DNA of 64,000 nucleotides from Swaminathania salitolerans (GTDB lineage Bacteria; Pseudomonadota; Alphaproteobacteria; Acetobacterales; Acetobacteraceae). The notes under the pieces were generated by a model that did not search any database, was not told the origin of the DNA, and saw only the letters and a program-made list of their open reading frames with translations. The stretch is taken from assembly GCF_007988945.1 (NCBI RefSeq), contig NZ_BJVC01000001.1, positions 372,001 through 436,000 of the forward strand, read 5' to 3'. The position numbers were made by a program, and so were the translations under genes. Shown in pieces: positions 1 to 30,362 of the stretch. Position 1 is the first letter of the stretch. Each line of letters opens with the position of its first letter.

Positions 1-395
1 GGGATGAAATATTTCTTCGATCCGAGAATGGTGCAGGGGCCGGCATCGGCGGCGTAAAGGCAGACCTTGCGTTCGATGTCGGTCAGGGTCACGTGCCAGC
101 GCCCCTCCGGCAGGAGGACGCGCGCGCCGTTATTGAAGTCGAACGCGATGCCTCTGGCGGCAGCCTGTGTCGGAACTTCCGGCGGGAGCGGAAAATTCCC
201 GCGCGTTGCAGGCAAGGGAGGAGACGAGGCCGCGAAGGCGCCCGTCGAATCCTGCGCCGTATCGACCGCGCCGCTCCGGGCCGCATCACCGGTGCCTGCG
301 CCGCCGGATTGCGCGCGTGGCGTGGCTTCCTCGCTTCCGGGTGCGGGTGCGCTGAAATTGAGGATCGAATCGATTATGGAGTCGATGTCGCTCAT
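1..395 (-). CDS. Second autotransporter-type O-heptosyltransferase (BAHT family), partial at window edge
   Basis: An open frame starts at ATG 395 and runs off the left edge with no stop. It begins MSDIDSIIDSILNF, followed by a low-complexity Ala/Gly/Ser/Pro stretch of about 60 residues. After that comes a segment that parallels the N-terminus of the neighbouring heptosyltransferase: GIAFDFNNGARVLLPEGRWH here against GIRYDFQDGCRVSLPPGKWH there, then an SKKY motif in both. It is therefore a tandem paralogue of the gene at 397-1548. Its ATG lies one base beyond that gene's TGA (TGA-A-ATG), so translation is probably coupled. The family transfers heptose to serines of strand-loop-strand repeats in surface proteins. 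Only about 131 residues are visible, so the catalytic part and the metal-binding cysteines cannot be checked. The disordered N-terminal extension is absent from the neighbour. Confidence 0.72.
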   Translation of the reverse strand, partial: MSDIDSIIDSILNFSAPAPGSEEATPRAQSGGAGTGDAARSGAVDTAQDSTGAFAASSPPLPATRGNFPLPPEVPTQAAARGIAFDFNNGARVLLPEGRWHVTLTDIERKVCLYAADAGPCTILGSKKYFI

Positions 396-396
396 T

Positions 397-1548
397 TCAG
401 CACGCTATTCCCTGCCCGGCGAGCAATTCTTCGATGACCTGTTCCACATGCGCCGAGGAGATCATTTTCGTACATTCGAAATCCCGCTCGGTGTTCGCGT
501 GGCGAGGGCACCAGAAATAATTCTGCCGCTCGAATTCGATCGTGACATCGTTCGAGCATCCGTTGCAGACATTGCGGTTGATCACCCGATACGGCGTCTC
601 GAATTCGTTGAACGGTTCGGTGAATCCGCTGATCATGACCACCGGGCAGCCTGCGGCCCAGGCGAGCCAGGACAATCCGCTCGAAAGCCCGATGAAGAAA
701 GCCGCATGTTTCAGCCAGCGTGCCCGCTCGCTGAGGGGGAGGGAGCCGGTCATGTCCTCGGCGCCGTGCGGGATATGATGCCAGATCGTGCCGTTTCCCT
801 GCACACGGTCGCGGTCGATACAGACGACGCGAAAACCGCGTTTTTTCAGGTACGGAATGATTTCCGCCCAGCCGAAGGGGTTGTTCCAGTATTTGTTGTG
901 ACCTGTTGCCTGTGTGGCGATACAGACATAAGGCTCCTCCATGGGAGGACCGCCTGGAGCGATCGCGATGGAGGGGCGCCGGTCTTTGGGAGGAAGCCCG
1001 AGAATATAGGCGCCTGAGACGCCAAGTCCCACCTGGCGATAATCGGTTGGCTGATGGTCGCGATTCGTGTCGTTGAAGAAGATCAGGACCTTGTACCGCG
1101 CGTAATAATCCTCTTCCAGACACGACACGTCGTCGGTGATCGTGATCGCCTCGTTGCAGCCTGCGAAGAGCGCCGCCATGCCGGGGCGTACGAGGCACAG
1201 AACATGACACCCGTGAAGCGCAGCGAAGGCCTCGACATGACCCATCCAGGCGAGGTGATCGCCGATACCGCCGAGATGCATGTCGATCAGAACGGTATGT
1301 CCGCGCAATGCCATGTCGTGGGCGAAGACCGTCTGTCCCTCGCGGGTTATTCTGAAACTGAAAGGGACATGATATTTCTTCGTGCTGCATACGAGACCGC
1401 CCTCGTTCGCGCCGGCGAAAATGACGGTCTGGGTCAGGCGATCCCTGAGCTCGATATGCCATTTCCCGGGGGGAAGACTGACGCGACACCCGTCCTGGAA
1501 GTCGTAGCGTATTCCTTCCGGGCCGATCTGGCTTGGCGTCTCGTTCAT
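397..1548 (-). CDS. Autotransporter strand-loop-strand O-heptosyltransferase (Aah/TibC-like, BAHT family)
   Basis: 383 residues, ATG 1548 with AGGAG about 7 nt upstream. The N-terminal part (about 1-65) is a small beta domain (YDFQDGCRVSLPPGKWH). The rest is a GT-B fold with GGIGDHLAWMGHVEA and a nucleotide-sugar site of the GT9 type (IGLSSGLSWLAWAAGCPVVM). The C-terminus carries four cysteines, C328-x2-C331-x15-C347-x11-C359, matching the Fe-binding finger known in TibC and Aah. Family knowledge: these cytoplasmic enzymes use ADP-heptose to modify serines in the AIDA-like repeats of autotransporter passengers before export. The only AIDA-like proteins nearby are the divergent Hint-domain proteins that start at 3245 and 5907, which makes them the likely substrates (inference). 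The gene lies 17 bp after the GT4-like gene and is coupled to the next paralogue at 395. Confidence 0.85.
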   Translation of the reverse strand: MNETPSQIGPEGIRYDFQDGCRVSLPPGKWHIELRDRLTQTVIFAGANEGGLVCSTKKYHVPFSFRITREGQTVFAHDMALRGHTVLIDMHLGGIGDHLAWMGHVEAFAALHGCHVLCLVRPGMAALFAGCNEAITITDDVSCLEEDYYARYKVLIFFNDTNRDHQPTDYRQVGLGVSGAYILGLPPKDRRPSIAIAPGGPPMEEPYVCIATQATGHNKYWNNPFGWAEIIPYLKKRGFRVVCIDRDRVQGNGTIWHHIPHGAEDMTGSLPLSERARWLKHAAFFIGLSSGLSWLAWAAGCPVVMISGFTEPFNEFETPYRVINRNVCNGCSNDVTIEFERQNYFWCPRHANTERDFECTKMISSAHVEQVIEELLAGQGIAC

Positions 1549-1565: not shown

Positions 1566-2546
1566 TCAGAGAGATAGGGACGCCCGGCCGGATTGCGACA
1601 TGATCAGACCGTATACTTGCGCGAGCGCATTCCGCGTCTCGTCTATAGTATAGCGCCGCGCAGTCTTTTCCGCCTCGTCGAGCATCATGTCAATGCTCGG
1701 GTCGCCATGCTCGAACCCGAAGAGCAGCGAGGCGAGCCGATCGACGATCTCCTCGCATTGTTCGGGCGAGAACCAGTGACCGTTCCGGTGGGTGGCGTAA
1801 TCCTTCCCGCCAGTGCCGTGAAACCCGACGAGCGCGCAACGTGACGCCATCGCCTCCAATGGGGTGAGCGGGGCAGCCTCCTGACGCGAAAGGGCAAGAA
1901 AGATCGTGGACCGCCCCATATGCTCGGCGACCTCGTGCTGGGGCATGTTCTCGAGATAGATCCAGGGGAAGCGCCGGGTTTCGGGATATTTGAGATGAAG
2001 CATGTTCATGATCAGATGCGCGAGCGCGGGATTTCCGTTCTGGAACGGCCATTTTTTCGGATTCGTGGCGATCCTGTTTTCCTTGGCGCGCGGATAGAAC
2101 ATTTGCGAGTCGATCGAGATCGGCACGACATGCACCTGGTCGAGGCCGAGAACGGTCGTGAGGGAGCGTGCGATTTCCTGTCCGGGCACGATGAAATGCG
2201 TGAACCCCATCCGGACGAGATCGGAGCGCTCGATGCCGTAGCTATAGAGATAATACTGGTTCTGACAGAACATGATTTTGGTGGCGCCGAGCGGCGTGCG
2301 CGCGAAATCGAGCAGCCAGTCGCGCATGACTTCGGGGAAGACGAGCACCGTTTCCTCGTCGACGGGAAACTGGTCGCAGACCCTGACATCGTCGCCCACA
2401 TCGAGCCATGGCGGCGCACCAGCGGGCTGATAGACGGAAACGTCATAGCCCAGCGCCCCCAGCATCGAAGCGTGCTGATAAACGACCTTCACGCCGCCAC
2501 TGACGGATCCCGGTACGAAGGGATTGAGGAAGACGATTTTCTTCAT
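1566..2546 (-). CDS. GT4-like glycosyltransferase
   Basis: About 326 residues from ATG 2546 (MKKIVFLNPFVPG). A GTG at 2570 is in frame, but the product begins naturally at MKK. The N-terminal half contains a glycine-rich SGGVKVVYQHASMLGALGYDV stretch typical of GT-B retaining enzymes. The C-terminal half has the E-x7-E nucleotide-sugar motif of family GT4 (EAAPLTPLEAMA), followed by GTGGKDYATHRNGHW. Donor and acceptor cannot be read from sequence. It is the first gene of a minus-strand operon with two O-heptosyltransferases and is divergent from the AIDA-Hint genes. It could extend the heptose added to those proteins, or act on LPS. No transmembrane segment is evident, so it is probably cytoplasmic. 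Confidence 0.75.
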   Translation of the reverse strand: MKKIVFLNPFVPGSVSGGVKVVYQHASMLGALGYDVSVYQPAGAPPWLDVGDDVRVCDQFPVDEETVLVFPEVMRDWLLDFARTPLGATKIMFCQNQYYLYSYGIERSDLVRMGFTHFIVPGQEIARSLTTVLGLDQVHVVPISIDSQMFYPRAKENRIATNPKKWPFQNGNPALAHLIMNMLHLKYPETRRFPWIYLENMPQHEVAEHMGRSTIFLALSRQEAAPLTPLEAMASRCALVGFHGTGGKDYATHRNGHWFSPEQCEEIVDRLASLLFGFEHGDPSIDMMLDEAEKTARRYTIDETRNALAQVYGLIMSQSGRASLSL

Positions 2547-3244
2547 GTGCGTTGTCCGATCGGCAAGCACGCACAGAAGTCACCGGCGCACGTGGATGCG
2601 ACGGTCTGTTCCGTCCCCGCCCGCAGCTCTGCCCGGTTTCCGGTCCTCTGCCACGATGTCTGCCCACGCTCCGGGCAGGGAGGGCAAATCGCGTTCCGCA
2701 AGGATGACAGGGATGATGGAAAACCCGGTTTTCCGCCTTCTCCAGTCGGGTTCCCGCCCTTCTCCCGTCCACCATGCGTGGAGAGACGTGCGGCAAATCC
2801 CGGGTTTCTGCCCCGCAGCATCAAAGATCCATCAAACATCGTTTGCCTGCGCTAATTCCCGGTTAAAGAAAGGAAAAGACATGATCGTGAACCATTTGTG
2901 AACATTGTGTCAGTTTGTAAAATTATAACGAAACGAGGGGCACAAAAGGTTAACGAACTATTAAAACAAAACTTTGTATTATATAAATAAAGTTTTCCGT
3001 AAATATAGTTTACGACATATTTCGTTCCATGTCGTTGACGTATATCGATAAAACGCCAAGCGCCAGAGCCTCTCTGTTGATCGCGGGTTCTTTCTGTTTT
3101 ATTTGTGTTGTCAAGTTACAAACACACAACCGCATTCGAGATGCGTGGAGCAGCACCCAGGCGGTTCAAGGCCGATCTTGCGTTTCGGCTATACTGTCGC
3201 AATGCTGCGGCACATTCGAGAAATCGATTCCGGGGGAAATATAC
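2547..3244. promoter_or_regulatory. Divergent intergenic region with AT-rich island upstream of AIDA-Hint gene 1
   Basis: This 698-bp non-coding stretch separates the minus-strand glycosyltransferase operon from the plus-strand AIDA-Hint gene. The part nearest the glycosyltransferases (2550-2830) is GC-rich, while about 2850-3030 is strikingly AT-rich. The AT-rich part must hold the promoter of the Hint gene, although I cannot assign one -35/-10 pair with confidence. The reading frame of the Hint gene stays open upstream to 3029, so a longer protein starting there is formally possible. Confidence 0.5.
2950..2961 (+). promoter_or_regulatory. TTAACGAACNAT motif in AIDA-Hint 1 leader
   Basis: TTAACGAACTAT lies in the AT-rich island 295 bp before the start of AIDA-Hint gene 1. 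Its near-identical partner, TTAACGAACGAT, lies at 33544-33555, 350 bp before AIDA-Hint gene 3, also in an AT-rich island. A weaker relative (GGTTAACACAAAATGAACGG) lies at about 5770 upstream of gene 2. This may be a shared regulator site or promoter element. The evidence is only the matching sequence and position. Confidence 0.3.
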
Positions 3245-5488
3245 ATGGCGATTACTTCGAGCGGCACCGCGAGTGGCGGCACGATCACCAGTAGCGGGGG
3301 GCAGTACTCGATCCTGAGCGGGGCGACCCTTGTCGTCGAAAACAGCCCTTATGTCGTCTCGGGCGCCATCGTTTCCGGGTTCGGTCAGGGGCCTGACAAT
3401 TCCGGTGCCCTTCCGGGCCAGTCGGGCGGCACGAATTATCCCGCGCTTCTGCTCGCCTCCGCTGGCGGCGTCGCCTCCAACGCCCAGGTCGGGTTCGGCG
3501 GTGTTGTCATGGGGGCCAATGGTGGGCGCGTCGAGGGCGGCTATGCGACCGATAGCGGGTCCTTCGCCGCCGTGAACAGCGGAACGGTCAATAACGTGAC
3601 CATCGGCTCGGATGGTGGTGTGCTCGCCAGTATGATGCCGGGTTATGGCGGCGCGGCAGGTCTCGTCACCAACGCGCATGTGCAGGCCGGAGGCTATGGA
3701 CTGGCCGGAGGCGGCTTCACGATCAAGGGACAGGAATTCGCAGGGTCGGGGATCATCTCGGGAGGGACGTTCGATGTCGGCTCCACCGAGATTCTCGTCT
3801 CGGCGGGCACGGATATAGGCAGCCTGATCGGCGGCACGCAGGTCATCTCCTCTGCCGGGTATTCGCTGAGTTCCATTTTCAGCGCCGGAACGCAGTTGAT
3901 CAGTGCCGGCGGTGTTGCAAGCGCCAACACGGCCTATGCAGGCGGGTCCATCCATGTCCTTTCCGGCGGCGTGTCCTATCGCACGACGGTCGGCTCGGGC
4001 GGCAGTGTCGAGGTCGCGGCTGGCGGTATGGTCAACGGTCTCACGCTCCAGGCTGCCGCGGCGGCAACAGCGCGCCCAGCGGCCGTGATCTCGAACGCGA
4101 CGGTCAATGGCGGTGGAACGCTCACGATCGATTCCGGTGCAACCCTTGCTGGCGGAACCATTCAGGGGACGACCTCCGATGGCGGTGCGGCAGGTCTGCT
4201 GATCGTGCAATCGGGCGCGGTACTGAACGGTCTGAGCATCGGATGGAAGGGGCGTATCGACGTCGATACGCTCAGCTATACGTCCGGACAGTCGATCCGG
4301 TATGCGAATGGCCAGATCAGCATCGTCGACAGTCAGGGGAATGTTCTCTGGAGTGCGGGAGTCACGGGCTCCGGAAGCAATACGGCTGCGGATTATCACC
4401 TCGAGCAGGACGCCGACGGAAGCACGATCATCGTCTATGACAAATGCTTCCTGAAGGGGACCATGATCCGTACTCCCGGGGGCGAGCGCGCCGTCGAGGA
4501 TATCAAGGTGGGCGACCATGTCTCGACTCTCGTCGATGGTGAGGTCGTCCAGCGTGAGGTCATCTGGGTCGGGCGCCGCTCCGCAACCGTAAGAGACTGG
4601 ATGACGGATGACGAGGCCGGGTATCCCGTGCGGATCCGCAAGGGCGCGCTCGGAGACAACGTTCCCTACAAGGATCTTCTCGTCACGCCGGAGCATGCGA
4701 TCTATCTCGATGGAGGGTTCGTGCCCGCACGTATGCTCGTGAACGGACGCAGCATCCTGTACGATCATAAGCAGACGCATTTCGATTATTTTCATATCGA
4801 GACGGATATCCATTCGATCCTCTGGTCGGATGGCGCCTTGAGCGAGAGCTATCTGGATACCGGAGACCGTACGGCATTTTCGCAGGACGGCCAGGTGGTC
4901 CGGCTGCTGAATGCCAAGGCGCAATGCTGGGAACAGGATGCTGCCGCACCTCTCAGGATCGCGCGCGATTTTGTCGAGCCGCTCTTTCGCAAGCTGGAAG
5001 CGCGCGCGGATATGCTCGCCTATGCTCCGGTCGAGCAGGACATCGAAGTCACGGAAGATCCCGATCTGCATCTTCTCGACGAGCGCGGGCGGGTCATTCG
5101 CCAGATGCGCGTGGTCGACCGGGCGCGTGTTTTCATGGTGCCGCCGGGAACGCGGGAAGTGCGGATCATGTCGCGCATCTCCCGTCCGGTCGATGTCGTG
5201 GGGCCGTTCCTCGACGACCGGCGTCATCTCGGCGTTCTGATCGCCGGGATCCAGATCTGGGAGGCAGAGGAAACGCATCGTCTCGAGGCTTATCTGACCG
5301 ACGAGACGCTCGAGGGTTGGGCCGAGCCGGAGGGTGGGCGATCGCGCTGGACGGCTGGCGCGGCATGTCTGCCCCTGGATGGCGGCAACGCCGAAACGGT
5401 GCGTCTGCTCTCCATAGAGGTCATCGCGGGCGGTCCGTACAGGGTCGAGCGAGACTCCGAGAGGGCAGAAAGCGCTCTGGCGTCCTGA
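3245..5488 (+). CDS. AIDA-repeat / Hint-domain protein 1
   Basis: About 747 residues from ATG 3245, preceded by GGGGGA. The start is chosen because three paralogues in this window begin in the same way just before the repeats. Residues about 1-385 are Gly/Ser/Ala/Val-rich strand-loop-strand repeats of the AIDA type (SGGTFDVGSTE, VLSGGV, VQSGAVLNGLSIGWKG). A Hint_2 domain follows, starting at C401 (CFLKGTMIRT) with the TPEH block at 481-484. The last roughly 190 residues form a module shared by all four paralogues (ISRPVDVVGPFLDDRRHLGV; RWTAGAACLPL). Family knowledge: Hint domains catalyse an N-S acyl shift at the first Cys and cleave or transesterify the chain. There is no signal peptide and no autotransporter barrel, so the export route is unknown. 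It is the likely substrate of the divergent heptosyltransferases (inference). Confidence 0.85.
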   Translation: MAITSSGTASGGTITSSGGQYSILSGATLVVENSPYVVSGAIVSGFGQGPDNSGALPGQSGGTNYPALLLASAGGVASNAQVGFGGVVMGANGGRVEGGYATDSGSFAAVNSGTVNNVTIGSDGGVLASMMPGYGGAAGLVTNAHVQAGGYGLAGGGFTIKGQEFAGSGIISGGTFDVGSTEILVSAGTDIGSLIGGTQVISSAGYSLSSIFSAGTQLISAGGVASANTAYAGGSIHVLSGGVSYRTTVGSGGSVEVAAGGMVNGLTLQAAAAATARPAAVISNATVNGGGTLTIDSGATLAGGTIQGTTSDGGAAGLLIVQSGAVLNGLSIGWKGRIDVDTLSYTSGQSIRYANGQISIVDSQGNVLWSAGVTGSGSNTAADYHLEQDADGSTIIVYDKCFLKGTMIRTPGGERAVEDIKVGDHVSTLVDGEVVQREVIWVGRRSATVRDWMTDDEAGYPVRIRKGALGDNVPYKDLLVTPEHAIYLDGGFVPARMLVNGRSILYDHKQTHFDYFHIETDIHSILWSDGALSESYLDTGDRTAFSQDGQVVRLLNAKAQCWEQDAAAPLRIARDFVEPLFRKLEARADMLAYAPVEQDIEVTEDPDLHLLDERGRVIRQMRVVDRARVFMVPPGTREVRIMSRISRPVDVVGPFLDDRRHLGVLIAGIQIWEAEETHRLEAYLTDETLEGWAEPEGGRSRWTAGAACLPLDGGNAETVRLLSIEVIAGGPYRVERDSERAESALAS

Positions 5489-5906: not shown

Positions 5907-8126
5907 ATGGCATTTGAATCGAGTGGTTTGGGATCGTCGGGCGCGACGATCTATCAGACAGCCGCGAATAGCTGGCGTGTGCTCAGCGGCGCGACCCTCA
6001 CCGTCATGGGTGCGGGGACCTCCGTCGTCGGTGCCTATATCGAAGGGCTCGGCATGGGAGGAACGACCAACCCTGCAATGCTTCTGATGCGTGGCTCTTC
6101 TGTCGCTTCGGGAGCGACGGTCGTATCGGCGGGCGTCGTCATCGCGGCCGACGGCGCGACCGCAATCGGCGGAACCGCCTATGAGAGCGGTTCGTTCGCC
6201 GCCATCAATGACGGTGTCGTCAGTGGGGTGACGGTCGGCCCCGGAGGGGGCGTTCTCGCGAGCAAGATTCCCGAACAGGGCGGGGGTGACGGTCTCGTGC
6301 TGGATCCGCATGTCCTTGCGGGAGGCTATGGGCTGGCCGGTGGCGGCTTTACGATCAAGGGACAGTTCTTCATCGGCCCGGGCACCATCTCGGGCGGGAC
6401 ATTCGACGTCGGCTCCACAGAAGGGCTGGCGAGCGGCGGCACGGATATAGGCAGCATCATCGGGGGCACCCAGGTCGTTACCTATTCCGGTCATTCCATC
6501 AGTTCGATCTTCAGTGCGGGCACCCAGTTGCTGGGCGCCGGAGGATTTGCGGAATACAGCGTCGTTTCCGATGGAGGCCTGATCGAGGTTTCCGGGAGCG
6601 GCGCCATTTCCTACCGCGCCAGGGCCGGATCCGGAGGGAGCGTGCGGGTTCTCGAGAGCGGTCAGGCCCTGTACCTTCAGGTCCAGGCTGCGGCCGCGGC
6701 AACCGTCGAGGCAGGCGGCACGATGTCCAAGGCGATCATCGAGGGCGGCGGAACCATGACGGTCAATTCCGGAGCGACGCTGGCGAGTGCGACGATTTCC
6801 GGTATCGATGCCTCGGGATCGGGAACCGGAGGGCTGCTTATCGTCCAGTCGGGAGCGGTGCTGAGAAAACTGACCATCGGCTGGAAGGGGCGCATCGATG
6901 TCGATACGCTCAGCTACGACCAGACGCAGAAGATCGTTTACGGAGACAATACGATCAGCATCGTGGATCAGTACGGCGCGGTGTTGTGGAGCGCCGATGT
7001 CAAGGGAACGGACAGCAACGCAGCGAGCGATTATCACCTCGAACGCGATCCGGCCGATGGCAGCTCGATCATCGTCTACGACAAGTGCTTCCTGGCTGGG
7101 ACGATGATCCGGACCGACCGGGGAGAGGTCAGGGTCGAGGATCTCGCGGTCGGCGATCGGGTGGTCGCCTGTGTCGATGGCGGGGAGGAATATCGCGAGA
7201 TCCGCTGGATCGGCCATCGCTCCACGGTCGTCAGGTCCTGGCTCGAGGATGACGAGGCCGGATTCCCCGTGCGTATCCTGCGCAATGCGCTGGGCGACAA
7301 TCTTCCGCACAAGGATCTGCTCGTTACCCCCGAACATGCGCTCTATCTCGAAGGCGCGTTCGTGCCTGCGCGCATGCTGGTCAATGGTCGCAGCATCTTC
7401 TACGACCGGACCCTGACCCATTTCGACTATTATCATATCGAAACGGAAAAACACTCGATCATCTGGTCCGATGGCGTTCCGAGCGAAAGCTATCTCGATA
7501 CCGGCGATCGCAGACGGTTCTCGCAGGAGAGCGCCGTCGTTCATATCCTGAACGGTGCCGCCCTCAGCTGGGAGCACGATGCAGCGGCGCCCCTGAGGAC
7601 CGATCGCGCGTTCGTGCAGCCTTTGCACATGACATTTGCCGGTCGTGCGGCGCATCTGGGTATCGGTTCCCTGGTCGAGACGCCATCCGTTACCGACGAC
7701 CCCGATCTGCATCTCGTCGACGATGAGGGGCGCACGATCCGCATGATGCGTTCCGTCAATCGCTGCGCTATTTTCATGGTGCCACCCGGGATCCGGTCGG
7801 TTCGTCTCGTTTCGCGGGTTTCGCGCCCGGTCGATGTCGTCGGGGCCTATCACGACGACCGGCGGCATCTCGGCGTTCTGGTCGGTGCAATCCAGATATG
7901 GGAGGCGAACGAGACCCGTCATATCGACGCGCATCTGAGCGATGCGGGTCTTGAGGGCTGGGCGAATATCGAGGATGGTCGTCAACGCTGGACGACCGGC
8001 GATGCCCGGCTCGATCTGAGTGACCGCGTTTCGGGAGCGGTCAGCATTCTCTCAGTGGAAATACGTGCAGGCGGTCCTTATCTTGCGAGGCCCGCCGAAC
8101 TCTCCTGCGGGGCTCAGGCTGGCTGA
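5907..8126 (+). CDS. AIDA-repeat / Hint-domain protein 2
   Basis: 739 residues, ATG 5907 with AGGAG upstream. This is a close tandem paralogue of protein 1. The passenger (about 1-385) keeps landmark segments such as AGGYGLAGGGFTIKGQ and SGGTFDVGSTE in the same order. The Hint domain starts at C394 (CFLAGTMIRTDRGEVRVEDL), with TPEH about 80 residues later. The C-terminal module contains SRPVDVVGAYHDDRRHLGV and RWTTGDARLDL. Residue pairs expected for hedgehog-type self-cleavage (first Cys, T-x-x-H) are present; the C-terminal Asn of inteins is absent. No signal peptide or membrane segment is visible. The ligase-like gene begins only 83 bp downstream on the same strand, so co-transcription with the polyketide synthase is possible. 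Confidence 0.85.
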   Translation: MAFESSGLGSSGATIYQTAANSWRVLSGATLTVMGAGTSVVGAYIEGLGMGGTTNPAMLLMRGSSVASGATVVSAGVVIAADGATAIGGTAYESGSFAAINDGVVSGVTVGPGGGVLASKIPEQGGGDGLVLDPHVLAGGYGLAGGGFTIKGQFFIGPGTISGGTFDVGSTEGLASGGTDIGSIIGGTQVVTYSGHSISSIFSAGTQLLGAGGFAEYSVVSDGGLIEVSGSGAISYRARAGSGGSVRVLESGQALYLQVQAAAAATVEAGGTMSKAIIEGGGTMTVNSGATLASATISGIDASGSGTGGLLIVQSGAVLRKLTIGWKGRIDVDTLSYDQTQKIVYGDNTISIVDQYGAVLWSADVKGTDSNAASDYHLERDPADGSSIIVYDKCFLAGTMIRTDRGEVRVEDLAVGDRVVACVDGGEEYREIRWIGHRSTVVRSWLEDDEAGFPVRILRNALGDNLPHKDLLVTPEHALYLEGAFVPARMLVNGRSIFYDRTLTHFDYYHIETEKHSIIWSDGVPSESYLDTGDRRRFSQESAVVHILNGAALSWEHDAAAPLRTDRAFVQPLHMTFAGRAAHLGIGSLVETPSVTDDPDLHLVDDEGRTIRMMRSVNRCAIFMVPPGIRSVRLVSRVSRPVDVVGAYHDDRRHLGVLVGAIQIWEANETRHIDAHLSDAGLEGWANIEDGRQRWTTGDARLDLSDRVSGAVSILSVEIRAGGPYLARPAELSCGAQAG

Positions 8127-8209
8127 GCCCCCTCACGACCGGTTTCCCCGCATCCTGGGGATTCCGGGGCGATGAAATGGCATCGCTGGATTATCGGGAT
8201 TGATCGTTT

Positions 8210-9673
8210 ATGTTTCATGTCATGGCTTTGCAGCACGCAAGGCAAAATCCTCAATCCCTCGCTTTCGACAGTCTGGCGCAGGACTGGAGTTTCGCACGGC
8301 TGGAGCAGGATGTGCTCGCGGTTAGCCGTGCGCTGGAAAGGCTGCGAGAGGCCGAGCCGAGAATGGTCGGCATCCATTGCAGCAATCTCTACTGGCACTG
8401 GGTCCTGATTCTCTCCCTGGCGTCTCTGGGGCTTGCGAGTGCCTCTCTTCCGGAAAGTGCCAGCCCGTCCTTTCTCAGGGATGTCCAGCTTCTCCAGCCG
8501 GAGCTCGTGATCTCCTTCGGCGGTCTTTCGCTTCAGGACGTGCAGGTTCTCGTGATCGACGAAGCCTGGCTGGGGCGCATCGGCAAGATTTCCGGCCCTC
8601 CTGTCGAGGTCTCCCTTTCCTGTGACGCGATCTGCCGGTACGCGATCGCGTCCGGCACGGATGCCGAACGGGGCGTTCTGTCCATGACCTATCGTCAGGC
8701 AGAAACGGCCATCATGCATCTGATGCTCCAGGACCGCATCGTCGGAACCGGACCGGTGGAGCCGTCTCATGTGCTTTCGACCATAGGTCTGATTTCCCTG
8801 ACGGGCTTCATCATCGGCTGCAGTGCCCTGTGTTCGGGATCGCCGCTGAATTTCGTAAGCCATACCGATATCGGCATCCTGATCGCGCGCAGGGTGCCCA
8901 CCGTCGCCGTCGTGACGCCGGAGCATCTCGCCCATATCGTCGAGGTTCTCCCACCCGGAATGACGCCGCTCGAAACGCTCACACTGGTCGTGACGGGCGG
9001 GCGCCTGAACGATGCCCTGCGCGACAAGGCGCATGCCCGTCTCACAAGCGCGCTTTCCATCGTTTACGGTGCGGATGAATGCGGTGCCCTGGCACTTGGC
9101 AGGGCAGGGTCAATGCCGACCGACGATATGGTCGGCTCGGTCCTGCCCTGGGTGACGCTCCAGCTCGTCGATGCGACCGGAACGCAGGTCGCGCAGGGCG
9201 AGGAGGGCATCGTGCGGGTCAGCGGCACGGGGGTTCTTTCGGGCTATGTCGGTGCCAGCGAGAAACGGTCGCGTCATTTTTCCGGCGCGTGGTTCTATCC
9301 GGGCGATCGCGGCATTCTGGATCGGTCCAACATTCTGCGTATCACCGGACGTGTGGACGATCTCGTATCGCTTGGCGGCGACAAGTTCGATCTGGGGGTG
9401 ATCGACGATATCGCCCGGTCGATACTCGCAACCCGCGAGCTCGGGAGTTTTCTCGCAGTCGACGAGTCCGGGCGCACGCGGCTCAATATGGCGCTCGCCT
9501 CGGGGCGCGACTTCGATGGCGAGCAGCTGGCCCAGGCCTTGAGGGCGTTCTACCCATCGCTCCCACCGGTATGCGTGATGAAGACGGATTATATTCCGTG
9601 GTCGCTCGACGGACGTGTCGACCGGGAGCGCCTCGCAGGCGCTTTCTCGCGCGCCGCCGTCGTCATGCGCTGA
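8210..9673 (+). CDS. AMP-dependent ligase-like protein (ANL superfamily), degenerate catalytic motifs
   Basis: 487 residues from ATG 8210 (alternative ATG 8222). It has the overall ANL layout: a P-loop-like segment at about 143-160 (ASGTDAERGVLSMTYRQ), YGADECG near 285 (normally YGxTE), YPGDRG near 363, and the hinge ITGRVDDLVSLGGDKF at about 375-392. Two catalytic lysines are replaced. The P-loop PKG reads ERG and is one residue short, and the A10 motif reads DGRVDR with Arg469 where GK is expected. Family members adenylate a carboxylate and load it on CoA or a carrier protein. This one may be impaired, or may only bind an acyl group. It lies about 96 bp before the polyketide synthase on the same strand and could have supplied its starter unit. 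No substrate can be named. Confidence 0.72.
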   Translation: MFHVMALQHARQNPQSLAFDSLAQDWSFARLEQDVLAVSRALERLREAEPRMVGIHCSNLYWHWVLILSLASLGLASASLPESASPSFLRDVQLLQPELVISFGGLSLQDVQVLVIDEAWLGRIGKISGPPVEVSLSCDAICRYAIASGTDAERGVLSMTYRQAETAIMHLMLQDRIVGTGPVEPSHVLSTIGLISLTGFIIGCSALCSGSPLNFVSHTDIGILIARRVPTVAVVTPEHLAHIVEVLPPGMTPLETLTLVVTGGRLNDALRDKAHARLTSALSIVYGADECGALALGRAGSMPTDDMVGSVLPWVTLQLVDATGTQVAQGEEGIVRVSGTGVLSGYVGASEKRSRHFSGAWFYPGDRGILDRSNILRITGRVDDLVSLGGDKFDLGVIDDIARSILATRELGSFLAVDESGRTRLNMALASGRDFDGEQLAQALRAFYPSLPPVCVMKTDYIPWSLDGRVDRERLAGAFSRAAVVMR

Positions 9674-9769
9674 CGCAGCGCCGGTTCCGAAAAGCTGTCG
9701 TCCCCGGAGAACATGCGACGCGTGCCGCTTTTGCCTCGCTTCTACCAGATTTAGGGTTTGTCTCTCGTC

Positions 9770-12700
9770 ATGTCGCGCAAGAAAACTACAGATATTGCCA
9801 TTGTCGGTATTGGCTGCCGCCTCGCTCCGGATATCGGAAACGCCGCAGAGCTGTGGCGTTTCCTGTGCGCGGGAAACGAGGCCGTGACCGATATTCCCGA
9901 GGACCGCTGGAGCGTCAGCCGGTTCTATGCGGAGGATATCGAAGCGCCATCCAAGACCTATATGCGTCGCGGCAGCTTTCTCCGGCGCGATATTCACGCG
10001 TTCGAGCCGCTGTTTTTCGGGATCTCGCCGCGCGAGGCCCAGATCATGGATCCTCAACAGAAGCTCCTTCTCGAGGTGACATGGGAGGCCATGGAAAATG
10101 CCCGCATGGTACCGGCTTCGCTCTCGGGGGCCAGAACGGGGGTGTTCATCGGTATCTTTGCGGTCGACGCCCATGGGCATCACGCCAGTCCGTACAATCT
10201 CCCGATCATCCGCGATCACTTCGCTGCCACGGCGACCCCTTCGACGATGCTCTCGGCGCGTCTGGCGCATGTCTACGATTTCCAGGGGCCGTGCATGTCC
10301 ATCGACACGGCCTGTTCCTCGTCGCTCGTCGCGCTTCATCAGGCCTGTCGCAGTCTGAGCGAAGGGGAGACCGATGTCGCCGTGACCGGTGGCGTGAGCC
10401 TCATGTACTGCCCCCAGACATCCATCTTCATGTCGAAAGGCCATTTCATCGCGCGTGACGGGCGGTCCAAGAGTTTCAGCGCGGATGCCGATGGGTACGG
10501 CCGTGGCGAGGGCAGCGTCGTCTTCATCCTCAAGCGTCTGGAGGATGCCGAGCGTGACGGCGATACGATCCATGCGGTCGTGAGCGGAACGGGCGTCAAT
10601 CAGGACGGGCGCACGCAATTCCTGACATCGCCCGATGCAGGCGCGCAGTCGCGGCTCATGTCCGAGGTGCTCGAGGCCGCGCATATCGACCCGCGCGATG
10701 TGGATTATGTCGAGACCCATGGAACAGGAACCCCGGCGGGCGACCCGATCGAAACCTATGCCCTGTCCCGGTCCATCGCCCGATTCCGTGACGAACCGCT
10801 CGTCATCGGCGCGATCAAGGCCAATCTCGGACATACCGAGGCCGCCGCAGGCGCGCTCGGAACGCTCAAGGCCGCGCTTTGTCTGCGTCATCAGGCCGTA
10901 CCTCCGCAGCCGGCACTCGAAACCATCAACCCCTCCATAAAGATGGAGGAATGGAATCTCGAAATTCCACGCCGCGGGGTCCACGCGCTCGGTGGGGCGC
11001 GTCCTGCGCGTCATGCCGGCGTGAATTCCTTCGGCTATGGCGGGACGAATGCGATCGCCGTGCTGCGGCGTCACGAGGCAGCGGAGAAACCGCTAGTTTC
11101 CCCGCCCGAAGGGCGTCGTATCGACGGCAGGATCCCGGTCCTTCTGACGGCCTTCTCCAGACCGTCCCTGCCGATGATGGCGGCGGCCTGTCGCGAGATG
11201 CTGGCGGGCGATCGTCCTCCCGCTCTGGGCGATCTCGCCTTCAGCCTCGCCACGACCCGTACGCTTTTCCGGAACCGGTTGCTCGTCCTTGCAAAAGACG
11301 AAGTGGAACTCCGCGAGCGGCTCGGTGCCTTTCTGCAGGAGCAGCGCAGCGAAGGCGTGTATCAGGCGAGCATCGAGGCGCAGGACGGCAAGGGGATCGT
11401 GTTCGTCTATTCCGGTGTCGGGCCGCAATGGTGGGGGATGGGGCGCCATCTCCTGAAAGAGGCATCCGACGCGGTGCGCGATCTGGCGCGGCGTTGCGAC
11501 GCACGCTTCTCCAAGCTCGCCGGTTATTCCATCCTCGACGAGATCCTCCGCGAGGAGGCGCACAGCCGGATCGATGCGACCGAGATCCTCCAGCCAGCCA
11601 TTTTCGTCATCCAGATCCTGGTGACGGCCTATCTGGCCGAACAGGGGATCGTGCCCGACGCGGTGCTCGGTCACAGCATGGGAGAGGTCGCCGCGGCCTA
11701 TGTGGCCGGTGCGCTCGAGCTGGACGATGCCGTGACGGTCATCTTCCATCGTTCGCGCCTTCAGTCCGGGCTGAACGGCACCGGGCGGATGCTGGCGGTC
11801 GGTCTCTCCGCCGAGGCTGCCGAAGCACTGATCGAAGCCGAGGCGCCCGGTCTGTGCGTGGCGGCAATCAATGCGCCGAGCAGTTGCACGCTCGCGGGGC
11901 CTGAAGAGGCCATACGTGCCATGGCGGCGCATCTGGCGGGCAAGGGATTGTTCAACCGCATACTCAATGTCGATGTGCCGTTTCACAGCCCGGCCATGGA
12001 TCGCATCGAGTCGGCGCTGCACCAGGCCCTTGCCGGAATTGCCCCGGTGGCACCGTCGATACCCTTCTTCTCGACCGTGACCGGGGCCGCGCTCCCGCCG
12101 ACGCAGGCGCTCGATGCGGCATACTGGTTTGCCAATGCGCGTCAGGCGGTGCGTTTTGCCGGGGCGGTCGAGGCCGCTCTTGCAGAGGGATTCACGCAGT
12201 TCGTCGAAATAGCGCCGCATCCGGTGCTCGGACGCTCCATCAAGGCTGTGGGCGAGAAGAACCAGACGAAACTCGGCGTCATCGCGACGCTCAATCGTCA
12301 GGAAGAAGAAGCACGCTGCCTCCGGAATGCGGTGGCCCATATCATTCTCCAGACGGCGCGCCTCGACTGGCCCGCGATCACGGGCGGACAGCCGATCGAT
12401 CTGCCCGCCTATCGCTGGGCGCGCGAAGCCTGCTGGATCGAGAACGAGCGGGAAAGGCGGTTCCGTCTCGGAGGAGGGGGGCACCCGCTACTCGGATTCG
12501 GCGCGATGACGCCCGGCAAGGCCTGGATCGCCGATCTGACGGCGCTTTCCGTCCCCTGGCTCAAGGATCACTGCATCGACAACGTGGTCCTGCTTCCCGC
12601 ATCGGGCTTTATCGAGAGCGCGCTGGCTGTCGCCGGAGAAGTGGAAGGGCAGGCGGGCGTCATCCTCGAGAATTTCGAGATCCTGGCACCTCTGGTTGTC

Positions 12701-15700
12701 CAGCCGGGCGACAATCCGGTGCTCCAGCTCAGCTATGACGAAACGCGCGGTTCGTTGCGGTTCTTCAGCGCGCGCGAGGAATTCAGCGAGATGTGGATCG
12801 ATCACGGTCGGGTCGATATTCTCTCGGCTCTTCCCTGGGAGGCGCCCGCTCTGGATCGTGACGAGGCGACGCAATGGCTGTCGATGGGCGTCGATGGCGA
12901 CCGGCTTTACGAACGGATAAGACCGCAGGGATTCCATTACGGACCGCGCTTCCGGACCTTGCGGCGTCTGGCCGTGCAGGAGCAGGTTGCCTATGCGGAG
13001 CTGGCCCTGACGGAGGAAGAGAAGGATTCTGTCGAAACCTATCATCTCCATCCCGCTCTGCTCGACGGGGCCATGCATGCCCTGATCGCCCTGGTGCCGG
13101 AGCGCTTTGCGGATCACATGTATGTGCCGGTCGGTTTCGAGCGACTGAGTTTCTACGGCAAGGCCCCGGCAGAATTGCTCGTCAGGGTCGAGCTCCTCTC
13201 GGTCAGCCACGCTCAGATCGAGGCGTCGCTTCGGCTCTACACCCATGAAGGCATTCCGGTGGCCGAGATGCGTGCGCTTCGCCTTGCCGAAGTGCCCAGA
13301 TCGCGCGACGACGAAACGACCCGCGCAATCCAGCGGCGCGACTACTACACCAGATGGACGCAGACCGAGGCGGCCATTCTCTTCTCCGAGCCGAAAACCG
13401 TTTGTCTCGCAGGCGAGGCGGGGCCGGTCCGCAAGCGGCTGAAAGCCCTGCTGGAAGAAAACGGGGTGACCGTCGTGGTCCCGCCGGCACGTTCGTCCAT
13501 CACCCCCGAGACCCTGAAGCTCGAGCCGGGATCCGTGCCCGATGCCGTGGTCTATCTCGGCCTTTCGAAGGCGCAGGAGACGCAGGAGGCGCTCGCGGCG
13601 CGTATCGATGCGCTCGTTGCGTTCGGCGAGCGTCTTCATATCCCGCAATCCGATCCGGCACCCCGGCTGATCCTGGTGACCGAGGGCGCTCTTTTCCTCG
13701 ACCGGGAGGAGGCGCTTCTTCCGGCGCGCTGTGCCATACGCCCTGATAATGCGGCCCTTGCCGGTTTCTTCCAGGGGCTCGTCGATGAACGGCCGGAGTT
13801 CCGGGGCAAGATCATCGACGTGACGGATCTGGCCAGCCAGGGCGCTCTGGGCGCACTTGCTGCCGAAATCCTTCATGACGATGCGGAGACCGAGGTCGCC
13901 TTGTGCGATGACCGGCGTTTCGTGCCCCGTTTCGTTCCGGTCGAGGGACAGCCGGAACGAAGCCTGGAGCAACTCCCGTCCGGCTCGGGAATCAGGCTCG
14001 AAAAGAGCCGCACGGGAACCCTGGACGGTCTGCGTTACCGGGCCTTCGACGTGCGGCCTCCCGGGCGCGGCGAGATCACCATCCGTATCCTCGCGACCTC
14101 TCTCAATTTCAAGGACATGCTCAAGGGCATATCGGTCCTGCCCGAGAAATTCCTGCGCGATACCTATCACGGCACAGAAATGGGCATGGAGTGCTGTTTC
14201 GAGGTCGTGGCGGTCGGTCGCGGTGTGAAGCGGTTCAGGGTCGGCGAGCGCTATCTGACCTGTCATCCGGGGTGTTTTGCATCCCACATGACATTGCCGG
14301 TCAAGGGGTTCCGCGTCATGGCGCTCGACCTGTTCGAGACATCGGGACGGCCGGTCACCGTTGCCGAGGCAACTGGCCTGCCGATTGCGATCGCGACCGC
14401 GCTCTACACGCTGCACGATCTCGCCCGCCTGAAAAAAGGCGAGACGCTGCTCATTCATTCTGCTGCAGGCGGGGTCGGCCTCGCGGCGATCGAGATCGCC
14501 AGAATCATCGGCGCACGCGTCTTTGCGACCGCAGGCAACGAGGAAAAGCGGCAGATGCTGCTCGATCGCGGCTGCGAGGCGGTGTGGGATTCCCGCTCGC
14601 TGGCGTTTTACGAGGGGATTCTGGAGAAGACGGGCGACAAGGGCGTCGATGTGGTCCTCAACAGTCTGCCCGGCGAGATACAGAAACACAGCGTGGCGCT
14701 ACTGCGCAACGAAGGGCGTTTCGTCGAGATCGGCAAGAAGGACATCTGGGAAAAACGCGATCTCTCGCTGTTCGATTTCAACGGCAATGTGGCGTTCTAC
14801 AGCTTCGATCTCGACCTCATGATGGCACGGGATCATCGCAAGGCGACCGCGATATTCGAGCGTATTCCCCATCTTTCCAGACGGTTCGACACGGTCATCC
14901 TGCCTCATGTCGTCTATCCCGCAGCAGAGGTGCGGGACGCGTTCAAATTCATGTCGTCCTCGCGGCATATCGGCAAGATTCTCGTTTCCTACGAGGATCT
15001 CGCTGGCGTGCGCGCCCAGCGTCAGCCGGCCCGATCCGTGGATCCCGACGGTGCCTATCTGATTACCGGAGGGCAGGGCGGGCTCGGCCTCGCCACGGCT
15101 GAGTGGCTCATCGGGCAGGGCGCGCGCCATATCCATCTCATGGGGCGCGCACCGAGGAAGGAGGCCGATGCGAAGGCGCGGATTGCGGCGCTGAAGCGCA
15201 AGGGCGTGAAAATCGCCCTGCATTTCGGCGATGTCGCACAGGAGGCGGATGTCAGCCGCATTCTGTCAGCGATCCGCGATACGGGACGGGCGATCCGCGG
15301 TATATTCCACGCAGCCGGTGTTCTGGATGACCGGCTCGTCTCGAATTATACGGGGGAGAGCCTGCGTCGTGTGCTCGCACCCAAGGTCGAGGGAGGGCGA
15401 CTTCTCGATCGCCTCTCCCGACAGGACAGGCTCGATTACTTCGTGCTCTATTCCTCGATCGTCACCGTTACGGGCAATATCGGTCAGAGCAACTACCGCG
15501 CCGCCAATGCGTGGCTCGATGCCCTGGCGAGTGCAAGACGGCAGGAAGGGCTCGCGGCGCTTTCCGTCCAGTGGGGACCGATCGCCGGGACAGGTATGCT
15601 CGCGCAGGAGGAAAGCGTGGTGCAGTTTTTCGAGAAGGCCGGTTTCCGCCTGCAATCTGCCGGCGATGCCCTGTCCGATCTCAAGGCGCTTCTGGACCGG

Positions 15701-16123
15701 GATCGCGATACGGTGGCCAGTATGGCGATCGACTGGGAGACCTGCTTCGAGCATCACGGACAGATCGAACGGAATCCGAAATTCGCGCTCATACGCCGCG
15801 AGAAGACGATCAGGAACAGCTCCGCCCAGAAGCTCGCCCATCTCCAGACGCTGACGCCGGAGGAGCGGTACGACTTCATTCTGGACAACGTGAAAACGAT
15901 TCTGGGCAAGGTGCTCAGAATGGAGCCGGACAGTATCGATCCGGGCGCGCGACCGAACGAGCTTGGGGTCGATTCTCTTGCCGGGGTCGAGATCCAGACG
16001 GCGATCAAGACGGAATTCAACGTCGAGATCTCTCTTCTCGTCCTCTCCCGCAACGAGCCGATCCGCGAAATCGCGCGGAATGTCCTGCGTCAGATCAGCC
16101 TGAACACGATGGCCGCCATCTGA
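9770..16123 (+). CDS. Highly reducing type I polyketide synthase, KS-AT-DH-ER-KR-ACP
   Basis: 2117 residues from ATG 9770 (an in-frame TTG at 9758 is less likely). Domains in order: ketosynthase about 5-430 with DTACSSS (~177), THGTGT (~313) and KANLGHTE (~352); acyltransferase about 530-850 with GHSMGE (~633) and VPFHSP in the specificity region (extender uncertain); dehydratase about 905-1190, His in WLKDHCIDN (~934; the usual Gly of HxxxG is Asn) and a downstream HPALLDGA; a structural linker with no methyltransferase; enoylreductase about 1400-1715 with SAAGGVGLAA; ketoreductase about 1745-1930 with TGGQGGLG, the LDD marker of B-type stereochemistry and an active Ser/Tyr pair; ACP with GVDSL, Ser ~2069. 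All reductive domains are present, so a saturated, lipid-like chain made iteratively is expected. There is no thioesterase domain and no PPTase nearby. Confidence 0.93.
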   Translation: MSRKKTTDIAIVGIGCRLAPDIGNAAELWRFLCAGNEAVTDIPEDRWSVSRFYAEDIEAPSKTYMRRGSFLRRDIHAFEPLFFGISPREAQIMDPQQKLLLEVTWEAMENARMVPASLSGARTGVFIGIFAVDAHGHHASPYNLPIIRDHFAATATPSTMLSARLAHVYDFQGPCMSIDTACSSSLVALHQACRSLSEGETDVAVTGGVSLMYCPQTSIFMSKGHFIARDGRSKSFSADADGYGRGEGSVVFILKRLEDAERDGDTIHAVVSGTGVNQDGRTQFLTSPDAGAQSRLMSEVLEAAHIDPRDVDYVETHGTGTPAGDPIETYALSRSIARFRDEPLVIGAIKANLGHTEAAAGALGTLKAALCLRHQAVPPQPALETINPSIKMEEWNLEIPRRGVHALGGARPARHAGVNSFGYGGTNAIAVLRRHEAAEKPLVSPPEGRRIDGRIPVLLTAFSRPSLPMMAAACREMLAGDRPPALGDLAFSLATTRTLFRNRLLVLAKDEVELRERLGAFLQEQRSEGVYQASIEAQDGKGIVFVYSGVGPQWWGMGRHLLKEASDAVRDLARRCDARFSKLAGYSILDEILREEAHSRIDATEILQPAIFVIQILVTAYLAEQGIVPDAVLGHSMGEVAAAYVAGALELDDAVTVIFHRSRLQSGLNGTGRMLAVGLSAEAAEALIEAEAPGLCVAAINAPSSCTLAGPEEAIRAMAAHLAGKGLFNRILNVDVPFHSPAMDRIESALHQALAGIAPVAPSIPFFSTVTGAALPPTQALDAAYWFANARQAVRFAGAVEAALAEGFTQFVEIAPHPVLGRSIKAVGEKNQTKLGVIATLNRQEEEARCLRNAVAHIILQTARLDWPAITGGQPIDLPAYRWAREACWIENERERRFRLGGGGHPLLGFGAMTPGKAWIADLTALSVPWLKDHCIDNVVLLPASGFIESALAVAGEVEGQAGVILENFEILAPLVVQPGDNPVLQLSYDETRGSLRFFSAREEFSEMWIDHGRVDILSALPWEAPALDRDEATQWLSMGVDGDRLYERIRPQGFHYGPRFRTLRRLAVQEQVAYAELALTEEEKDSVETYHLHPALLDGAMHALIALVPERFADHMYVPVGFERLSFYGKAPAELLVRVELLSVSHAQIEASLRLYTHEGIPVAEMRALRLAEVPRSRDDETTRAIQRRDYYTRWTQTEAAILFSEPKTVCLAGEAGPVRKRLKALLEENGVTVVVPPARSSITPETLKLEPGSVPDAVVYLGLSKAQETQEALAARIDALVAFGERLHIPQSDPAPRLILVTEGALFLDREEALLPARCAIRPDNAALAGFFQGLVDERPEFRGKIIDVTDLASQGALGALAAEILHDDAETEVALCDDRRFVPRFVPVEGQPERSLEQLPSGSGIRLEKSRTGTLDGLRYRAFDVRPPGRGEITIRILATSLNFKDMLKGISVLPEKFLRDTYHGTEMGMECCFEVVAVGRGVKRFRVGERYLTCHPGCFASHMTLPVKGFRVMALDLFETSGRPVTVAEATGLPIAIATALYTLHDLARLKKGETLLIHSAAGGVGLAAIEIARIIGARVFATAGNEEKRQMLLDRGCEAVWDSRSLAFYEGILEKTGDKGVDVVLNSLPGEIQKHSVALLRNEGRFVEIGKKDIWEKRDLSLFDFNGNVAFYSFDLDLMMARDHRKATAIFERIPHLSRRFDTVILPHVVYPAAEVRDAFKFMSSSRHIGKILVSYEDLAGVRAQRQPARSVDPDGAYLITGGQGGLGLATAEWLIGQGARHIHLMGRAPRKEADAKARIAALKRKGVKIALHFGDVAQEADVSRILSAIRDTGRAIRGIFHAAGVLDDRLVSNYTGESLRRVLAPKVEGGRLLDRLSRQDRLDYFVLYSSIVTVTGNIGQSNYRAANAWLDALASARRQEGLAALSVQWGPIAGTGMLAQEESVVQFFEKAGFRLQSAGDALSDLKALLDRDRDTVASMAIDWETCFEHHGQIERNPKFALIRREKTIRNSSAQKLAHLQTLTPEERYDFILDNVKTILGKVLRMEPDSIDPGARPNELGVDSLAGVEIQTAIKTEFNVEISLLVLSRNEPIREIARNVLRQISLNTMAAI

Positions 16124-27220: not shown

Positions 27221-27227
27221 CGTGGCC

Positions 27228-27287
27228 CCCGGGGAGAAAGTCACCCGGGAAGAAAGTCGCCGGGGGAGAAAGTCACCGGGAGGAGGG
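27228..27287 (+). repeat. 16-bp tandem repeat, about 3.7 copies, before cysG
   Basis: The units are 27228-27243, 27244-27259 and 27260-27275 (each close to CCCGGGGAGAAAGTCA), followed by a decayed partial copy. They begin 7 bp after the 17-bp hairpin and end about 50 bp before cysG, so they are probably in its 5' leader or promoter. Each contains a purine-rich GGGGAGAAAG core. Confidence 0.7.
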
Positions 27288-27335
27288 ACGTCGTCCGGAC
27301 TTGGCGCGCGCGAAACGGCGCGTCATACAGACTCC

Positions 27336-28736: not shown

Positions 28737-28830
28737 AGATCGTGCATTCCCCATTGCACGTTCGTGTTTGAGGCATTATGTCGAGACTGGTTCTTCAAAC
28801 AGCGATCTTGAATAGTGGATTGGTTCGGTC

Positions 28831-29514
28831 ATGGCCCTGACAGAGACAGAACGGCAGATCCTCACGCCGCTCCCCGAAGAGGAAATCCTCCCTCGCGCCG
28901 TCTCCCTTCTCAGGGGGCGTATTGCGCTGGTCTCGTCTTTCGGTGCGGAATCGGCCTTGCTTCTTGCCATGCTGGCCGATCTCGATCCCGCCTTTCCGGT
29001 CCTTTTTCTCGACACGCGGCGTCATTTTCCGGAAACCCTGACCTATCGCGACGATCTGGTGGCTTCGCTCGGGCTGACGAATGTCCGTTCGATCGCCCCG
29101 GCCGATGCTGCCCTGCGGGATCGCGATCCACAGGATCAGCTCGCGGATTTCGATCCGGATGCCTGTTGCGCCCTGCGCAAGGTCGAGCCGATGGATGCCG
29201 CGCTGGCGGGGTACGATGCCTGGATAACGGGACGCAAGCGCGGTCAGGCCGCCACGCGCGCCGCCATGCCTGTTTTCGAGCCGCTCGGGGACGGGCGCGC
29301 CAAGATCAACCCGCTCGCATCCTGGACCCCGGCGCAGATCGAGGCTGAAATGATCCGCAGGGCTCTGCCGCGTCACCCCCTGACTGCCCTCGGATTCCGG
29401 TCGATCGGCTGCGCTCCGTGCACCCGGGCGGTCGGGGAAGGCGAAGACCCCCGTGCCGGACGTTGGGCCGGACACAACAAAACCGAATGCGGCATTCATG
29501 TGCCGGCGCGATAA
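28831..29514 (+). CDS. cysH: Adenylyl-sulfate (APS/PAPS) reductase, 4Fe-4S type
   Basis: 227 residues, ATG 28831. It reduces activated sulfate to sulfite with thioredoxin. The PP-loop-like start is SSFGAESALLL, and LDTRRHFPETL and TGRKRGQA bind the nucleotide. Two cysteine pairs, C112-C113 (DACCALRKVEP) and C194-x2-C197 (GCAPC), mark the 4Fe-4S form that normally uses APS. The catalytic Cys lies in the C-terminal KTECGIH (about C220). The E. coli-type PAPS reductase lacks the cysteine pairs. The next-but-one gene carries an APS kinase domain, so the cell may also make PAPS. Its stop codon (TAA) overlaps by one base an ATG in the cysD frame. It is the second gene of the sulfate-assimilation operon. 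Confidence 0.93.
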   Translation: MALTETERQILTPLPEEEILPRAVSLLRGRIALVSSFGAESALLLAMLADLDPAFPVLFLDTRRHFPETLTYRDDLVASLGLTNVRSIAPADAALRDRDPQDQLADFDPDACCALRKVEPMDAALAGYDAWITGRKRGQAATRAAMPVFEPLGDGRAKINPLASWTPAQIEAEMIRRALPRHPLTALGFRSIGCAPCTRAVGEGEDPRAGRWAGHNKTECGIHVPAR

Positions 29515-29525
29515 TGGAGCATAAC

Positions 29526-30359: not shown

Positions 30360-30362
30360 GTT

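Follow-up and report, generated by a model that had tools for sequence, protein, structure and literature searches.

A conserved Hint–ANL–polyketide synthase gene unit of Acetobacteraceae with a fatty-acyl-AMP ligase, TibC-type O-heptosyltransferases and a probable pseudo-ligase

In the FadD28-MAS pathway, a fatty-acyl-AMP ligase (FAAL) is paired with mycocerosic acid synthase (MAS). TibC has been reported to heptosylate the autotransporters AIDA-I and TibA (PMC4358343). Gene clusters of beta-group polyketide synthases (PKSs) with acyl ligases, an O-heptosyltransferase, and, for Asaia, Hint-domain proteins have also been described (PMC8776678). Type-1 PKSs (T1PKSs) were reported from every Bombella genome and from Saccharibacter, Gluconacetobacter diazotrophicus, and Asaia bogorensis (PMC9147383), and the T1PKS of Bombella apis was proposed as one antifungal candidate (PMC8262860). 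The mutations listed for a cellulose overproducer include one in a Hint-domain gene whose function is unknown (PMC11999647). Here we describe a related gene unit in Swaminathania salitolerans (genome of ca. 2.9 Mb). The window, that is, the whole stretch of DNA analyzed, spans 64,000 nucleotides (G000:C1:372001-436000), and its relatives are Acetobacteraceae, hereafter the family. A first-pass annotation had proposed that a Hint protein, a ligase-like ANL protein, and a fully reducing PKS encoded here might act together in hedgehog-like lipidation. Open reading frames (ORFs), Pfam domains, and gaps confirmed that Hint_2, ANL-fold, and type-1 PKS genes are consecutive on one strand; 83 bp lie between Hint protein 2 and ANL, and 84 bp (TTG start at 9758) or 96 bp (ATG at 9770) between ANL and PKS.

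The cluster of PMC8776678 is of the same type, since the sections of that paper concerned with it describe a PKS flanked by acyl ligase genes, an O-heptosyltransferase, Asaia Hint proteins, and no thioesterase. In the same sections, Hint proteins are named for Asaia only and the cluster is seen as producing a metabolite; neither a lost ligase lysine nor repeat passengers nor any connection of the lipid to a Hint protein is mentioned. The gene content has largely been published already, whereas retention of the gene order outside Asaia and the pseudo-ligase seem to be new. Among the matches listed from the open-licence PMC literature, no paper tied Hint proteins to the lipid of the unit.

Using the ANL protein as query, we surveyed 200 family genomes, 20 of which matched; a second search covered 397 family genomes with an ANL alignment, whose scores showed a gap from 448 to 339 bits. 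The line was set after this gap had been seen, and 22 of the 64 ANL rows, all <340 bits, were dropped before counting. The ANL clade of the 397 genomes comprised 42 loci in 41 genomes of 10 genera, and all 42 neighborhoods were inspected. PKS adjoined ANL at 40 of the 42 loci, in two of which (group g29) the Hint gene was in between; at two g64 loci, ANL and Hint genes were present and a PKS was not found nearby. A Hint_2 gene was directly beside ANL at 28 of the 42 loci, in 8 genera and in the order Hint-ANL-PKS or Hint-ANL (27 recognized by a domain within 300 bp; at L242, the C-terminal end of a Hint protein served instead). The first-pass annotation had named PKS and Hint genes lying apart in relatives as a finding that would refute its idea, and this refutation did not come about. 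One further locus, L241, begins at a contig end, where a Hint neighbor could not be judged. Acetobacter nitrogenifigens and A. sacchari (L095 and L098) have the order Hint-ANL-PKS-FAAL-TibC-TibC, with frames overlapping from PKS on. Close homologs of the major facilitator superfamily (MFS) gene of the window were beside the unit only in Asaia among the compared stretches, indicating that the surrounding synteny is lost where the unit persists.

Plain adjacency without a functional link, which the first-pass annotation had left open, draws some support from the 21 Hint_2 genes of the genome and from gaps of 83–96 bp, which allow separate transcripts. It is set against an order kept in 8 genera at 27–69% ANL identity to the window copy, and against a second unit with its own Hint gene (G285, below). 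The chance of a given gene having a Hint neighbor was ca. 0.1–1.4% in six genomes; chance adjacency was rejected on the comparison of this value with 28 of 42 loci. With PKS, ANL, and Hint genes kept together as a single unit in relatives, plain adjacency is highly improbable and is largely contradicted already.

Of the 20 genomes matched in the first survey, 15 formed a set with ANL and PKS, after exclusion of G104, G109, and G110 as weak and of G063 and G138 for having no PKS. Within this set, the PKS of G115 was partial and that of G028 absent at 1e-150, and these were counted from L040/L056 and L042/L057. A FAAL match of >320 bits was present in exactly the 15 ANL and PKS genomes of the 200; we assigned matches of 206–263 bits, seen in 7 of 22 genomes, to other ligases, and the 320-bit line was set once the gap had been seen. 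TibC (TibC_1st) was found in 15/15 of these genomes versus 41/185 others. A TibC gene was beside 39 of the 40 PKS-bearing units, and in Commensalibacter (G039) the genome had no other TibC match. As judged from these sequence matches, the unit is wider than three genes and includes an intact FAAL and TibC-type O-heptosyltransferases. A PKS search at 1e-150 matched 63 of the 200 genomes, mostly in the ketosynthase-acyltransferase (KS-AT) part only; thus PKSs as such are common. For Hint_2, counted from the best 18 matches per genome, co-occurrence with the unit gave p 0.045, a value that, like the other P-values, ignores common descent. This is weak evidence since Hint_2 is common anyway, and adjacency carries the argument.

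The Hint gene and the rest of the unit also appear to go together. Their identities over 11 lineages were correlated (r 0.79; none of 10000 permutations as high, species descent being ignored). On a tree built from 75 Hint sequences, near-copies included, the unit Hints needed 5 label changes versus 23 in shuffles. In both g61 genomes, the sole Hint_2 match genome-wide was that of the unit, and relatives of the g61 unit Hint were located elsewhere in g32 and g101 genomes (support 97/95). One genome of the Asaia group, G285, had its own unit plus a second one, in which each of four genes had its nearest relatives at L247 and L248 of g54 (Hint 54, ANL 46, PKS 54–58, and FAAL 49% identity). The PKS of this second unit is in two frames.

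The ANL fold of the protein at 8210-9673 is backed by a profile match, so that this half of the label "ligase-like ANL" stood; the other half probably does not, because the catalytic A10 lysine is replaced by Arg. The A10 lysine was replaced in 40 of 40 PKS-linked ANL copies (by H, R, Q, F, M, E, G, or T, and by S in L244, where the ANL end appears frame-disrupted and the residue is unsure), and the A3 loop was eroded. The two g64 copies with no PKS nearby retained both the A10 lysine and the A3 loop. The ANL protein is thus probably not a working ligase. The residues D366 and R381, which we take to be pocket residues of ANL, were, like other pocket residues, invariant in 17 ANL proteins; binding of acyl-AMP without its synthesis is therefore conceivable. 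In the FAALs, the A10 lysine was kept in 28/28 and 17/17 sequences of two comparisons, together 36/36 different FAALs. The best structure match of the S. salitolerans FAAL was 7r7e (E 1.4e-78), and it was close to FadD28/FadD23 structures. We rejected the ANL protein as the starter ligase of the PKS, given the loss of its catalytic lysine and the presence of an intact FAAL. Of the hedgehog-like lipidation idea, PKS, ANL, and Hint as one unit was borne out by the conserved order; activation of the lipid by ANL cannot be taken for granted.

The PKS was rightly called fully reducing: its domain order is KS, AT, dehydratase (DH), enoylreductase (ER), ketoreductase (KR), and acyl carrier protein (ACP), and the catalytic motifs of KR, DH, and ER are intact. 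Complete KS-AT-DH-ER-KR-ACP motifs were found in 16 of 18 compared PKSs, whose AT motif reads VPFHS or VPYHS. The two g29 PKSs (L040/L056 and L042/L057) have no AT motif and an irregular DH motif; with the AT motif missing, their extender would have to come in trans. In the draft genomes of Asaia platycodi and A. astilbis (L091 and L093), the PKS is broken into several ORFs, unlike L029-L031. The closest solved structure to the window PKS was MAS (9d2y), so that the pairing with a FAAL near FadD28/FadD23 resembles FadD28-MAS. The unit differs from that pathway in that no PapA-type acyltransferase was seen and in that adhesin and heptosyltransferase genes are alongside. No thioesterase was matched by Pfam in the window PKS, as in the cluster described in PMC8776678; the chain must therefore be handed to something. 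From the intact motifs, the product is predicted to be a saturated acyl-ACP without a hydroxyl, hence an acyl donor and not a hedgehog-type alcohol.

This prediction bears on the Hint domain. Hint_2 (PF13403) of Hint protein 2 scored 133.7 bits (cut-off 28.4), with the N-terminal Cys and TxxH present, and the catalytic Cys and TxxH (TxEH) were invariant in 35 aligned Hint sequences. A model of the C-terminal 358 residues reached a pLDDT of 86.8. Its Hint part matched the bacterial intein-like (BIL) domain 2lwy (Z 12.6, root mean square deviation [rmsd] 2.1, 119 aligned) and hedgehog 1at0 (Z 10.2, rmsd 2.7, 118 aligned). As modelled, the Hint domain resembles BIL domains, inteins, and hedgehog, both in fold and in N-terminal catalytic residues. 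It departs from hedgehog in carrying an AIDA-like passenger and in a C-terminal domain that we could not relate to the sterol-recognition region. Where a splicing intein would be closed by a C-terminal Asn, the Hint domain ends in ESYLDT in the window, with no Asn, and in ESYLNT or ESWLNT in several relatives; the end point (around model residue 147) was set by the fold match. The following C-terminal domain (DDRRxLGV, RWTxG) was present after Hint in all 35 aligned proteins and had no Pfam match; among the fetched loci, it occurred once without a Hint match (L179:3604-4143).

Given the invariant Cys and TxxH, a thioester at Lys393-Cys394 of Hint protein 2 is plausible. In hedgehog-like joining, a lipid bearing a hydroxyl or amine would attack this thioester to leave an ester or amide at the C-terminus of the passenger. 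The modelled fold close to 1at0 and 2lwy, the invariant residues, and the conserved synteny are consistent with this route, as is the residue before the Hint Cys, which was Lys in 21 of 29 unit Hints versus 4 of 46 others (near-copies included; 3 of those 4 are g32 relatives of the unit Hint). However, acyl-ACP in its fully reduced form is electrophilic, as is the Hint thioester itself, and cholesterol-style attack would need the hydroxyl or amine that the intact KR, DH, and ER predict to be absent. A reductase or hydroxylase was not evident in the unit, and many similarly built Hint proteins occur where there is no PKS. Hedgehog-like joining is accordingly quite unlikely.

We tentatively favor another explanation, in which the unit makes a long saturated acyl chain that goes to the AIDA-like Hint adhesin by a non-hedgehog route. 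We infer the chemical steps and covalent links that follow from gene content, gene order and its conservation, motif states, and the modelled fold, all of which are read from the sequence. The FAAL would activate a fatty acid and load the PKS, which would extend and fully reduce the chain and, for lack of a thioesterase, keep it on the ACP. The ANL protein, its adenylation lost, may act as a helper, perhaps in handing over the chain. Repeat passengers would receive O-linked heptose from the TibC-type enzymes and would be cut from the C-terminal domain by the Hint domain. The final acceptor of the chain would be the passenger. Joining at heptose or side-chain groups is more probable than joining through the Hint thioester and agrees better with the near-constant presence of TibC in the units.

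As in the TibC-TibA and AAH-AIDA-I autotransporters, the TibC-type enzymes scored above the curated cut-off and target repeats were found in some passengers. O_hepto_targRPT was above its cut-off in the unit passengers of L032 (42.2 bits) and L095 (69.3 bits). The passengers of the unit differ from these autotransporters in ending in Hint plus the C-terminal domain instead of a beta-barrel, with lipid-making genes attached. Outside the unit, 8 of 20 TibC stretches contained a Hint gene versus 0.8–1.0 expected. These stretches were hand-picked, one per genus, and a nearby Hint gene was foreknown for G055, G132, and G152; without these three, the count was 5 of 17 versus 0.64 expected.

Several observations count against the favored explanation. 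No Hint gene was beside ANL at 13 of the 42 loci, all in g32 and g101 (the Bombella and Saccharibacter groups), where the lipid genes are kept. Hint_2 was present in 156 of the 200 genomes, mostly without the unit, so that Hint proteins do not need it. In the window, the AIDA label is weak: the two passengers scored 17.1 and 22.8 bits for O_hepto_targRPT against the cut-off of 30, and Pfam AIDA was not matched. The label is clear in L032 and L095, and a search of the L038 passenger for O_hepto_targRPT gave none. A TibC gene was not found for the second unit of G285 within the fetched stretch, and no acyltransferase gene was evident in the unit. The unit Hint proteins had no clear signal peptide, as judged by hydropathy only, and no beta-barrel match, which leaves the export of these adhesin-like proteins unexplained.

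Absence of the Hint neighbor at 13 loci also fits a different outcome, in which the product of the unit would be a free secondary metabolite or a membrane glycolipid, with the Hint adhesins as co-regulated partners and not acceptors. An example would be the antifungal product proposed for the B. apis T1PKS, which we infer to be this cluster; it is described with two putative adenylation domains (PMC8262860), matching ANL plus FAAL. The antifungal role is unproven, however, and the relevant part of PMC9147383 doubts a bee-specific role because T1PKSs are widespread. Moreover, the unit contained no conserved exporter within the compared stretches, close homologs of the MFS gene recurring only in Asaia, and the TibC and Hint neighbors fit a protein target better. 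We consider a free product possible but doubtful.

A further, more novel reading is a bacterial protein-lipidation system, in which a very long acyl lipid from FAAL and PKS would be handed over by the pseudo-ligase and attached covalently to O-heptosylated Hint adhesins, with Hint joining or releasing. This reading as a whole is unlikely; if true, it would parallel hedgehog processing in bacteria, with a polyketide as the lipid. The tie between Hint and PKS matters for both partners. No role for the Hint_2 proteins of the 156 genomes was found in the open-licence PMC literature searched, and the type-1 PKSs of bee and insect symbionts (Bombella, Commensalibacter, and Asaia) have no known product. 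The tie gives a testable function for both and offers an alternative to the antifungal role under which this PKS has been discussed to date.

Table 1 Coordinates of the unit and adjacent genes in S. salitolerans (window positions unless a contig or locus is named).
Feature	Position	Strand	Remarks
FAAL gene	G000:C1:369185-371044 (= L058:17085-18944)		after second TibC gene, just left of window; match at C1:369275-370936
Second TibC-type O-heptosyltransferase gene, N-terminal part	3..395	(-)	open ORF; gene continues leftward beyond window edge
TibC-type O-heptosyltransferase	397..1548	(-)	TIGR04414 hepto_Aah_TibC 531.2 bits, cut-off 200; TibC structure 4rb4 E 4.7e-110
GT4-like glycosyltransferase	1566..2570	(-)	Pfam Glycos_transf_1; kept in Asaia, more distantly in several other units
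Hint protein 1	3245..5488	(+)	Hint_2 E 1.3e-37; ORF from 3029
Hint protein 2, AIDA-like passenger part, aa 1-393	5907..7085	(+)	weak O_hepto_targRPT match, 17.1 bits, below cut-off
Hint protein 2, Hint_2 domain, aa 394-532	7086..7502	(+)	Cys394 first, TxxH present; Pfam E 8.3e-39
Hint protein 2, conserved C-terminal domain (DDRRxLGV, RWTxG)	7503..8126	(+)	no Pfam match
ANL-fold protein, probable pseudo-ligase	8210..9673	(+)	Pfam AMP-binding, partial, E 5.5e-18; A10 Lys -> Arg, A3 loop eroded
Fully reducing single-module PKS, KS-AT-DH-ER-KR-ACP	9758..16123	(+)	Pfam; TTG start 9758 or ATG alternative 9770

The GT4-like gene and the two TibC-type genes run divergently, left of the Hint, ANL, and PKS genes. 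On the remainder of the second TibC gene (L058:18859-19899), TIGR04414 scored 461.6 bits (cut-off 200). The likely start of Hint protein 1 was set from the N-termini of relatives, since the Asaia-like N-terminus MAITS begins at 3245. The 21 Hint_2 genes of the genome (22 matches, with one gene split in two) form a large paralogous family, and a PF07591 search of the S. salitolerans genome gave 0 matches. Further Hint_2 genes are at 33894-36563 and 36853-39261 of the window, neither with an NCBIfam repeat match. Sulfate-assimilation genes (sirohaem synthase, PAPS-reductase domains, and a GTPase with APS kinase) are at 27222-32240, between the two Hint gene pairs. In g61, g32, and g101 (L032-L037), the unit has a DsbD-like gene on its upstream side; in L223 and L224, such a gene adjoins TibC genes that do not belong to the unit.

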